The notes under the pieces were generated by a model that saw only the letters and a program-made list of their open reading frames with translations, was not told where the DNA came from and searched no databases. The position numbers and the translations under genes are program-made. 20,607 nucleotides of DNA from a virus, in IMG/VR virus record IMGVR_UViG_3300025427_000001, positions 1-20,607 of that record; one strand, given 5' to 3'. Each line of letters starts with the position of its first letter. Position 1 is the stretch's first letter. Positions 3,831 to 11,066 of the stretch are shown one piece after another.

Positions 3831-5065
3831 ACGAAGGCCACCTTGACGTTGCCGATTGCGATTTGAGCCTGTTGAAATGGCGTCATAACGAATTCGGTTG
3901 TGAATGTGGTCGGTGCAGCGGCTCCAGCCGGAACACAAGCGACTTGAACGGACTTGATATAAAGGCCCGGCAGGCTTTCTGCGATAGAGCCTGAAAGTTC
4001 AAATGCCGATACCGAAGCGCCGACCACAAAACCTGCCTCACCAGCGTTAAGCCCGTTCGCATAGTCGACCACGGCCTGTTGGATCGCGGCTGTCGACGCG
4101 GACGACGTCCCTTGCGACACGATGATATTTACGTAAGTGTCGAACAGGATCGGGGTGGTCGACTTGACCAAGAAATTCTGACCGCTCACCGGGTCTTGCA
4201 CTGAGACTGCCGGTACAGGCACGCCATTGCCCGCAGAGCCGTAGTCCCATGGGCAGCCGCCGCCATGTCCCTTAAGGATGGCGGCGGCGATTGCGGCTCG
4301 GTTGCCGGTGCCTGCAACGCACACCCAAAAGGCGTTCGGCAGGGTGAAAGTGACGCCGCCTACCAGACCAACAGCGCCAGTATTGTTTTCCACAACTTTA
4401 ACGGAAGTGACATTAGGGACTTTCGACACCTGGGCAATGATCGATGCAGCAGAGCCGCGACCAAGGGATGCAAGTTGCACGTTACGGGCGTTCTTCAACT
4501 GAGGATCGGTAAGTGCCAGAGTACCGAGGGTGATAACGGTGCTAGCGGTTACGTTCGCACCACCCCAACCGATAGTGCCGTCGATGATGGTGAGGGGACC
4601 GATAGGCAGTGGTACAGGGCCTGCCGATTGAGCAACAAAAATACCTTCAACAATCCCACCGGCTGGAATGGTCACGTTAACGGACAATACAAACACATCC
4701 CCGTTAACAGTCATTGCCCGAGAACCTGCACTGATGGTTGTGCCGGAGTTACCGATAACATCAATGTTAGAGCCTGCTGTAAAGTCGTCCTCGCCGCGAT
4801 CTACGCCAAGGAATGAGCAGACAGCGTCCAGATGCGTGCCATAAGTGAAGTTAGGATTAAGCAGATTGGCTTGCTCCACATTGTTCTTCATTACACCACT
4901 GCGGGCGATGGTTTCTGCTGCAATCATAGTACCTTGCAGGGTGGCCGAGCTGACATTCAGGTTCTGCTGGATAGAGCTTTTGAACTCGCCTTGCACATTA
5001 GAGAGCAAATCCGAAGTGTCTACCGAGGCAATGCCAGTATCCACAGAATAGTTGTATTGAGTCAT
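3827..5065 (-). CDS. Baseplate J-like protein
   Basis: This 412-residue protein is of the baseplate J family (P2 gpJ and T4 gp6 related), the main wedge component forming the baseplate ring. Visible hallmarks are the N-terminal helical region with an NLLNPNFTYGTHLDAVCSFLG-like stretch around residues 65-90, then SGTTISAGSRAMT and GDVFVLSVNVTIPAGG (the beta domain that accepts the substrate-like loop). A late helical AAIQQAVVDYANGLNAGE motif is followed by VGASVSAFELSGSIAESLPG. Its start codon shares one base with the spike stop (TAATG), and its stop overlaps the DUF2612 start. The order spike, J, DUF2612, fibre is the canonical one. A GC-rich 11-bp inverted repeat lies inside the gene at 4256-4288. 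Confidence 0.92.
   Translation of the reverse strand: MTQYNYSVDTGIASVDTSDLLSNVQGEFKSSIQQNLNVSSATLQGTMIAAETIARSGVMKNNVEQANLLNPNFTYGTHLDAVCSFLGVDRGEDDFTAGSNIDVIGNSGTTISAGSRAMTVNGDVFVLSVNVTIPAGGIVEGIFVAQSAGPVPLPIGPLTIIDGTIGWGGANVTASTVITLGTLALTDPQLKNARNVQLASLGRGSAASIIAQVSKVPNVTSVKVVENNTGAVGLVGGVTFTLPNAFWVCVAGTGNRAAIAAAILKGHGGGCPWDYGSAGNGVPVPAVSVQDPVSGQNFLVKSTTPILFDTYVNIIVSQGTSSASTAAIQQAVVDYANGLNAGEAGFVVGASVSAFELSGSIAESLPGLYIKSVQVACVPAGAAAPTTFTTEFVMTPFQQAQIAIGNVKVAFV
4256..4288. repeat. 11-bp perfect inverted repeat inside baseplate J gene
   Basis: GCCGCCGCCAT (4256-4266) and ATGGCGGCGGC (4278-4288) are exact reverse complements around an 11-nt spacer that itself contains the palindrome CCTTAAGG. 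The arms encode an Ala run and a Gly run, whose GCC and GGC codons are complementary, so codon composition may be enough to explain the structure. Confidence 0.6.
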
Positions 5066-5769
5066 TACGAAATTGCTCCACCGGATGTCCGGTTGCCTGG
5101 GGAAGAGCTGATATGTCCGTGACCGATGAAACTAACACCATCGATATTCGTATCACCGACGATTTTAGCGGTTCCGTTCACGAGTAAGTTCCCGTCAACC
5201 TGAAGATTCGCCGAAGTTTCGACGGTAGGCGTCTGGAGCAGGATTTTGGTCGGCGCAGTAATCTTGATGTTATCGCCGCGAATAGAGATTTTGGTCGCCC
5301 CGTTCGTTGACTGAATCACCATAGCGGCAGAGTCCTCGGCAGCGATGGTGTATTGACGAAACACGTCCGGGATGAACATTGCATCACTGAAAGAGTGCAG
5401 TCGTCCGCTGTTCGGAATCGACTCTTTGAGTGATTGAACAAACTGGGAGATATCCCGGTCGGACGCGTGAATCCACCCAAGGTCGCCGGTATTCATCGGG
5501 AAGCTGATGTGGAAGTTGCCAGCGCCCATCGACAAAACCGGGATACCCGCAATTACGTTGCGGCTATGACCGATGTCTTGAACGTCAAGAAGTTTGATCA
5601 GTGGGCGGACGGTCGCTATATTCGCGTTCCGGTCGTAATTAAGGACGACTGCTGGTAGCATGTCCTCAATTTTGAGCGAGTTTGAATATAGGAGTTGTTC
5701 AAGCGCACTTATGAGGCGTTTCCGCGCTGGGGCGTTCGTTGAAACTAACGGCTTTAATTTGGTCGACAT
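5065..5769 (-). CDS. Gp138-like membrane-puncturing spike
   Basis: This 234-residue protein matches the layout of Gp138-type spikes (phage phi92 gp138), the needle at the distal tail end that pierces the outer membrane. The N-terminal ~110 residues form an OB-fold-like region (MLPAVVLNYDRNANIATVRPL, FPMNTGDLGWIHASDRDI). Residues ~125-200 are a beta-helical needle (ISIRGDNIKITAPTKI, LQVDGNLLVNGTAKIVGDTNIDG). The tip has GHGHISSSPGN, an HxH motif that in such spikes coordinates a metal ion. The start is the ATG at 5767-5769, with GGAG 6 nt upstream; an in-frame TTG 24 nt further up has no comparable site. Like its neighbours it is coupled to J by a TAATG overlap. Confidence 0.87.
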   Translation of the reverse strand: MSTKLKPLVSTNAPARKRLISALEQLLYSNSLKIEDMLPAVVLNYDRNANIATVRPLIKLLDVQDIGHSRNVIAGIPVLSMGAGNFHISFPMNTGDLGWIHASDRDISQFVQSLKESIPNSGRLHSFSDAMFIPDVFRQYTIAAEDSAAMVIQSTNGATKISIRGDNIKITAPTKILLQTPTVETSANLQVDGNLLVNGTAKIVGDTNIDGVSFIGHGHISSSPGNRTSGGAIS

Positions 5770-5824
5770 GGAAAGCTCCAGAAGGTCGCGCAATTATAGC
5801 CGTTAGAGGCCCTGCGAGGAACTA

Positions 5825-6340
5825 TTATCGCTTAGATGCCTTTGCAGCAGCCTCGCTAGATAGGGCGTCATTGACCCCTTTCGCTACGTTGATTTCGAAC
5901 ATCTTAAAGGCATCCTCTAAGGAGTAATACTCTTCAAGCTCCTTAAGACTGGCCGACCCTGACTGAACCAGCTGGGTTATCAGTGGCTTGGAGTACGCAG
6001 TGCTAACGCTAACCGCATCGCTGATGAAACGGGAAGGGACCTTGACCCCTTTCCATCCAGACAGGAATTCGAAGCTGAAGGCGCTGACCGTATCCGATAA
6101 GGCTATCAGCACCTTCAGCGGCGGAACGATCCCGAGCACGTCTTTAACATAGAAGTTCACGTTGTCTGGGTCATTGAGCGGAACCCAATTGCCCATAACC
6201 TCTACTTCGGTTTTCTTAAGGACTTCGCAAGGGTGAACAGTGCGTAACAGCTCCATAAGGTCAAGGCCGCTGACTGCGTCAAATTGAGTCGTGCGATACT
6301 TAACGCCGAACATGTCGAAATTGCGTGTTTTACAGGACAT
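5825..6340 (-). CDS. Putative tail/baseplate assembly chaperone-like protein
   Basis: This 171-residue protein has no certain family assignment. It has the compact alpha/beta-then-helical look of phage tail assembly chaperones: a short N-terminal beta part (FGVKYRTTQFDAVSGLDLMELL), a middle with FSFEFLSGWKGVKVPSRF, and a C-terminal helix YYSLEDAFKMFEINVAKGVND. The pattern F-x-A near the N-terminus followed by Gly recalls the chaperone-like gene at 9517-9933. It lies directly after the hub gene (4-nt gap) and before the spike, so a hub or spike assembly factor, by analogy to T4 gp26/gp51, is another possibility. There is no clear Shine-Dalgarno; translation probably depends on coupling to the hub gene. 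A 55-nt gap follows before the spike start. Confidence 0.55.
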   Translation of the reverse strand: MSCKTRNFDMFGVKYRTTQFDAVSGLDLMELLRTVHPCEVLKKTEVEVMGNWVPLNDPDNVNFYVKDVLGIVPPLKVLIALSDTVSAFSFEFLSGWKGVKVPSRFISDAVSVSTAYSKPLITQLVQSGSASLKELEEYYSLEDAFKMFEINVAKGVNDALSSEAAAKASKR

Positions 6341-9941: not shown

Positions 9942-10526
9942 TTAAAATAGTGAGCTAACTTTATCATACAGGCCGCTGACAGTCGATGTAACTTTGTTGA
10001 TAGCGTTAGTGGCCAAACTTTGCGGCTGTTGAATTCGAAGGCCGAATGAACTAGCGTTTGCAGAGCCTTTAGGGGCGAACGCGTTAGACTTAGGAATGAA
10101 CGCCTGTTCTAGCTCGATAGTGATATCGACAGCCGCTGTCATTTCAGCGGATTGAGTAATTACCATGTCAGTCATAACCATAGCATCAGAAATGATGGCT
10201 TTCGACGTGATCGAAAACGACAATCGCGCGTCTTGAAATGCGACCATCAAGTTTTCTACAGTAGACGGGTTATTCGATAAGGCGTGAATCTTCAACTTTA
10301 CTGGGCGAATGATCTTCGTGTTCTTAGTGTCAATCTGAATGCCACTGTCATACACAGACGTCGCCGTTCCGTCTTGGTTGTACAGAGGGCTTTCGCTTGT
10401 TGTGGTTTCAGGCATAAGGTCGACGCTGACTATAGCCAAATCCGTGAAGGATTTAAGGCCTGTTACGTCGTTCACGATGGTGAGTGGAGACTTTTTGAAC
10501 AAAGTATCCAGAATCGAACCGGCCAT
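9942..10526 (-). CDS. Dit-like baseplate protein, second paralogue
   Basis: This 194-residue protein is a clear paralogue of the product of 10530-11066. Both begin MA-x-x-IL-x-TLF-x-K, both contain an IRP/IRV strand in the middle and QSAEM (here VITQSAEMTAAVDITIELEQAF), and both end with a helix containing GLYDKV or DLYGKA. These features fit the Dit-like N-terminal domain found in baseplate proteins of myophages of this type, which cap the tail tube near the hub. AGGA lies 6 nt before the ATG, and the first paralogue ends 3 nt upstream. Being nearer the chaperone and tape measure, it may form the ring next to the hub. The family name is from recall; the paralogy is seen directly. Confidence 0.75.
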   Translation of the reverse strand: MAGSILDTLFKKSPLTIVNDVTGLKSFTDLAIVSVDLMPETTTSESPLYNQDGTATSVYDSGIQIDTKNTKIIRPVKLKIHALSNNPSTVENLMVAFQDARLSFSITSKAIISDAMVMTDMVITQSAEMTAAVDITIELEQAFIPKSNAFAPKGSANASSFGLRIQQPQSLATNAINKVTSTVSGLYDKVSSLF

Positions 10527-10529
10527 TAT

Positions 10530-11066
10530 TTATCCTACCAAGTTGCTAACGGAAGTGACTGCCTTTCCGTATAAGTCTGATACCGCACCCGCTGCTGATG
10601 AGATAGCAGCGATGCCTCGGTTTATTAGGGATGAGTCGGCAGGGTTTTTGAATGTCTGCGGGTTGTTGTTCTGGATTAGTAACTGTTTGAACGAAATTCG
10701 GATCGGGGTCGCGGTCAGCATTTCGGCAGACTGGCGAAGTGTGGCGCCTTCAGCCCGCATATCCGGGAGTACAATGCCGCGCGTTGACACTTTGTAACGA
10801 GTGTCTCGGTTCTGAATGATGTTGTTCATCTGGATTAGAGTATCGATGTCCGGGCAAATGGCGTCCATCGATACTCTAATCGGCTTGATGGTTCGAGTAT
10901 CGACCAGCGTGGTGCCGTCTTCCAACATATGCCGTTGCGGCTCGGCTGACAGGTTGATGGATACCTTAAGGACTTTAAGGTTCAGCGCGGTCTTGGCGCC
11001 ACTGAGTTGGTCCTGAATCGAAACAGACGGCTTTCCGAATAGGGTAGAGAGGATTCCGTCAGCCAT
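10530..11066 (-). CDS. Dit-like baseplate protein, first paralogue
   Basis: This is a 178-residue paralogue of the following gene (9942-10526). Shared landmarks are MADGILSTLFGK at the N-terminus, the central IRVSMDAICPDIDTLIQMN region, RGIVLPDM, LRQSAEMLTATPIRISFKQLLI, and a C-terminal helix SAAGAVSDLYGKAVTSV. The likely role is a ring at the junction of tube and baseplate, as the ripcord-type proteins do in pyocin R2 and related tails (inference). Its ATG overlaps the stop of the tube-like gene (TGATG). The gene contains a perfect 16-bp inverted repeat with a third competing arm (see the repeat feature and finding), which its paralogue lacks. Confidence 0.75.
   Translation of the reverse strand: MADGILSTLFGKPSVSIQDQLSGAKTALNLKVLKVSINLSAEPQRHMLEDGTTLVDTRTIKPIRVSMDAICPDIDTLIQMNNIIQNRDTRYKVSTRGIVLPDMRAEGATLRQSAEMLTATPIRISFKQLLIQNNNPQTFKNPADSSLINRGIAAISSAAGAVSDLYGKAVTSVSNLVG
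10833..10903. repeat. Perfect 16-bp inverted repeat plus third competing arm
   Basis: GATTAGAGTATCGATG (10833-10848) and CATCGATACTCTAATC (10866-10881) are exact reverse complements separated by 17 nt. A third element, GAGTATCGA (10895-10903), is the reverse complement of the middle of the second arm with an 18-nt spacer. The transcript could therefore fold either as a 16-bp or as a 9-bp hairpin using the same central arm. The whole element lies inside a coding sequence, so neither hairpin is a terminator by position. Related segments (VDTR, IDTL) share the codons GAT ACT, which explains only part of it. Confidence 0.85.

Follow-up and report, generated by a model that had tools for sequence, protein, structure and literature searches.

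A perfect inverted repeat within a ripcord-1-like gene

The window, by which we mean the whole stretch of 20,607 nucleotides analysed, encodes on its minus strand (10530 to 11066) a protein of 178 amino acids that, judged by homology and gene order, is homologous to ripcord-1 of the Pbunavirus-type baseplate (Pa193 gp38; gp37 in PDB entry 8eon), the name ripcord being taken from PDB records and PMC11042391. Phmmer matched the protein to 9b45_S, "gp38 Ripcord-1" of Pseudomonas phage Pa193 (E 3.8e-41, alignment of residues 4 to 176), and to 8eon_A (E 6.4e-41), and PHROG 2580 was matched with E 7.7e-57. This near-full-length homology to a solved ripcord-1 goes together with a position directly after the baseplate tube gene: the gene before it has its match in "gp37 Baseplate tube" (9b45_M), and the gene that follows (9942 to 10526) shares the PHROG of ripcord-1 and occupies the position of ripcord-2, a gene order that agrees with that of PB1-like and other phages. 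An earlier note on this DNA had called the hairpin-bearing gene Dit-like, a label that sequence comparison replaces with ripcord-1-like, and had considered an effect on passage between the tube-like gene and a second Dit-like gene; the repeat lies mid-gene, in codons 62 to 78, at no gene junction. In Xanthomonas phage XcP1 a rho-independent terminator is annotated within the ripcord-1 homologue (L061:2764-2804, plus strand), elsewhere than the hairpin of the window.

The repeat consists of two arms of 16 nt, 100% complementary and separated by a spacer of 17 nt (10849 to 10865, minus strand), exactly as had been claimed. On the plus strand GATTAGAGTATCGATG stands at 10833 to 10848 and its exact reverse complement at 10866 to 10881, the only perfect pair at 16 nt in the window. 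Read on the minus-strand transcript, the first arm (10866 to 10881) is GATTAGAGTATCGATG and comprises the last base of codon 62 and codons 63 to 67 (I R V S M), whereas the second arm (10833 to 10848) is CATCGATACTCTAATC and comprises the last base of codon 73 and codons 74 to 78 (I D T L I). The 9-base element that had been proposed as a competing partner was also found, at 10895 to 10903 (GAGTATCGA; TCGATACTC on the minus-strand transcript): it is the reverse complement of 10868 to 10876, inside the arm at 10866 to 10881. Both arms contain the self-palindrome ATCGAT. No further good copy of the 16-nt arm was found in the window, the best having 3 mismatches, and the neighbouring paralogue (9942 to 10526) has no comparable repeat, in agreement with the earlier note. 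An exact search for the whole 49-bp repeat in viral contigs, which may have left out the record of the window itself and those closest to it, returned nothing. Elsewhere in the window, an inverted repeat of 15 nt with 93% complementarity and a 32-nt spacer (5745 to 5759 and 5792 to 5806) lies near the junction of the ORFs at 5065 to 5793 and 5825 to 6340.

Codon register and predicted folding

In the register of the two arms third codon positions face each other, so that first positions pair with second positions (phase 3 in the nomenclature of coding palindromes; PMC6649704). The residues I-R-V-S-M and I-D-T-L-I permit complementarity in this register, and when the protein was held fixed and synonymous codons were drawn at random according to the codon usage of the window, a median of 10 of the 16 pairs formed; part of the complementarity therefore comes free with the protein. 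All 16 pairs were reached in 1.5e-5 of the draws. The complementarity beyond the share of the protein is codon choice, including a rare AGA arginine codon in the first arm (10875 to 10877, minus strand), one of only two AGA among the 209 arginine codons of the minus-strand genes. The longest arm in 400 synonymous shuffles of the genes of the window was 15 bp, and none (0/400) reached 16 bp, which makes chance by independent mutation unlikely for one window; by extrapolation it would be about 1 in 1000 or below, many windows having been read, however. What lies here is a coding palindrome, a perfect inverted repeat in an intact gene beyond codon-preserving chance.

Predicted energies on the minus (coding) strand, each hairpin being folded in isolation, are -26.6 kcal/mol for the 16-bp form and -11.5 kcal/mol for the 9-bp alternative. 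A minus-strand segment of 171 nt has a predicted fold of -56.8 kcal/mol, with z = -5.0 against dinucleotide shuffles (0/200 more stable). The comparison with codon-keeping shuffles, which the earlier note had suggested, likewise gave an unusually stable fold (z = -4.0; 0/300 equally stable), and the plus-strand fold was less exceptional (z = -2.3). Predicted folds of the nascent RNA favoured the 9-bp form until the second arm was mostly made, and the 16-bp form thereafter. On these models a fork of two hairpins is physically possible, its use by the phage being unsupported. The third arm itself would mostly be a by-product of a repeated D-T protein motif (D-T-R and D-T-L): the third element codes for V-D-T-R and the second arm on the transcript for I-D-T-L, both D-T sites use GAT ACT C, and the homologue in L003 carries a near-intact element, TAGATACTC, in the corresponding position while forming just 4 of the 16 hairpin pairs.

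Conservation and the excess of coding inverted repeats

We gathered homologues from annotated phages and through queries with the host gene and with the sheath, baseplate tube, lytic tail and major head proteins. Among the 35 distinct homologues that aligned through the region, between 2 and 10 of the 16 positions formed Watson–Crick pairs (mean 4.7), against 4 of 16 expected for random letters and 3.5 to 4.9 pairs in a shifted-partner control; the longest run of pairs in any of them was 5, and the full pairing was kept in 0/35. Judged by this alignment, in which the nearest homologue is 46.6% identical in protein, the hairpin is not conserved. The earlier note had named retention of the protein with loss of complementarity as the sequence half of what would speak against its RNA readings, and all 35 homologues are in this state, evidence against a fork or processing site that is conserved. 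No ancestral imperfect repeat is visible at such a distance. DNA-level relatives of the host gene were absent among annotated phages, a search of genome contigs found no relative, and a search with the ripcord-2 paralogue gave no match. The arm columns of the window are no more divergent than those between relatives and do not indicate which arm changed; the first arm, being the least like the relatives, was considered as the recipient of a change and rejected, given that the relatives differ from one another just as much in those columns.

The census of perfect repeats within 100 nt covered 1,015 non-redundant ORFs (782,085 bases, a mechanical ORF set) from the window and its relatives, with expectations from synonymous shuffles and with mirror and complement repeats as controls. 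For arms of at least 10 bp we found 149 inverted repeats against 85 expected (mirror 109, complement 60), for at least 12 bp 21 against 5.8 (mirror 14, complement 6), for at least 13 bp 11 against 1.6 (mirror 3, complement 1), for at least 14 bp 8 against 0.43 (mirror 2, complement 0), and for at least 15 bp 4 against 0.075 (mirror 0, complement 0). The ratio of observed to expected inverted repeats is thus 1.8 at 10 bp and climbs to about 19 at 14 bp, and 7 repeats of at least 14 bp remain when the window is left out. Arms of 16 bp arose in 0/40 synonymous shuffles of the 782 kb. Two repeats of at least 16 bp per 782 kb, that of the window included, correspond to about one in 20 windows of this size, a rough rate based on two events. 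An excess confined to inverted repeats and growing with arm length is the pattern predicted by homogenisation of the arms through template switching.

Similar repeats occur in other ORFs of the relatives: L021 has one with arms of 17 bp, and in L030 and L102 the arms measure 15 bp. The 17-bp perfect repeat, with a spacer of 29 nt, begins at base 1711 of an 873-aa ORF downstream of ripcord-1 (L021:10874-13495, plus strand) and is identical in L015 and L019, three contigs in all. Two ripcord-2-like genes on the plus strand, L069:2152-2742 and L030:8366-8974, each contain a perfect inverted repeat (13 and 14 bp, respectively) in a register that differs from that of the window. Of the 11 inverted repeats with arms of 13 bp or more, 3 lie in ripcord genes, where length alone would predict 0.4, that of the window being one of the three; with the threshold lowered to 10 bp (7 against 7.2) or 11 bp (3 against 2.9) these genes are not enriched, and we do not claim them as special hosts of hairpins.

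Origin and meaning of the repeat

We consider it fairly probable that the hairpin is a lineage-specific coding palindrome that arose by template switching during replication, and it is probably neutral. A polymerase would have changed templates for a moment inside the repeat, rewriting one arm as a copy of its partner, with either arm as the possible recipient, and in this way a short inverted repeat that already existed would have been perfected to 16 bp; the repeat would then persist because the encoded residues are tolerated and not because an RNA structure is needed. Template switching between the arms of inverted repeats is reported to homogenise them in yeast coding DNA (PMC8604942) and, in RNA genes, to make perfect stems in a single event (PMC8794818). 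For this origin speak the failure of the synonymous nulls, the inverted-repeat excess, the lack of pairing in the homologues (0/35) and the AGA codon in the first arm; against it, the excess pools other possible sources (selection for hairpins, terminators inside ORFs, internal repeats) and is unsplit by gene. The earlier note had offered an attenuator-like fork, an RNase III site or the scar of a template switch; the pairing missing from every homologue speaks against a conserved form of the first two, and the scar stands as the best-supported option because the genes of the relatives are rich in long perfect coding inverted repeats.

That point mutation and codon drift made the repeat by coincidence, and that it stood out through the number of windows read, is rather unlikely: the amino acids do allow most of the first- and second-position pairs, with the median of 10/16 under random synonymous codons, and many windows and features were examined at the first stage, but no shuffle of the window or of the 782 kb reached 16 bp, and the relatives, too, carry more repeats of this class than expected. 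We regard as unlikely a lineage-specific RNA element in which the 9-bp hairpin would form first and the 16-bp hairpin after it, with an effect on cleavage by RNase III, on the stability of the mRNA or on the speed of ribosomes between the baseplate tube gene and ripcord-2. The strong local fold and the predicted shift of the nascent RNA from one form to the other as the second arm is completed are what such an element would call for, yet its pairing is kept in none of the homologues, the D-T motif accounts for the third element, and a hairpin in mid-gene would presumably be opened by ribosomes in the course of translation. No terminator-like or promoter-like site was found at the hairpin, and the window has 0 Rfam matches. 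The fuller proposal, that the nested hairpins are a recently acquired element tuning expression or mRNA processing of the baseplate tube, ripcord-1 and ripcord-2 genes, is very improbable. Transcription attenuators and riboswitch-type forks are alike in that the sequence permits two hairpins, each excluding the other; the hairpin of the window, by contrast, has neither terminator nor leader position nor conserved pairing, its helices lack compensatory changes across the 35 homologues, and a curated RNA family is not matched, so that a regulatory fork is not supported. Least of all do we expect a DNA-level site for binding or recombination, or an artefact of contig assembly: ATCGAT occurs in each arm, and the window comprises an entire virus record of a public collection, probably a genome fragment, but other copies of the arm differ by at least 3 mismatches, and the intact ORF and its end-to-end alignment with relatives make a chimeric join unlikely.

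Template switching thus remains the preferred origin, and it has counterparts in known systems. Quasipalindrome-associated template-switch mutations in E. coli, yeast and RNA genes (PMC7202029, PMC8604942, PMC8794818) resemble it in yielding a perfect inverted repeat with a short spacer; there the change was inferred from ancestor to descendant or seen in assays, whereas here no close relative shows an imperfect precursor, and the related genes also show an excess of perfect arms over the codon-preserving expectation. The coding palindromes of nematomorph mitochondria (PMC6649704) are likewise perfect inverted repeats inside genes with both arms coding, are gained and lost between species, and have template switching proposed as their origin, as here. 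They differ in reaching 284 bp and being numerous per genome, against a single repeat of 16 bp, and in register, that of the window (phase 3) being the most protein-constraining.

By itself the hairpin is of little import, an ordinary coding stretch with a probable mutational by-product. The more useful result is that genes of this phage group carry perfect inverted repeats of at least 14 bp at about 19 times codon-preserving chance. Given this excess, a regulatory role should not be read into a long perfect hairpin of a phage gene unless conservation speaks for it, and such phages could serve for measuring template switching.
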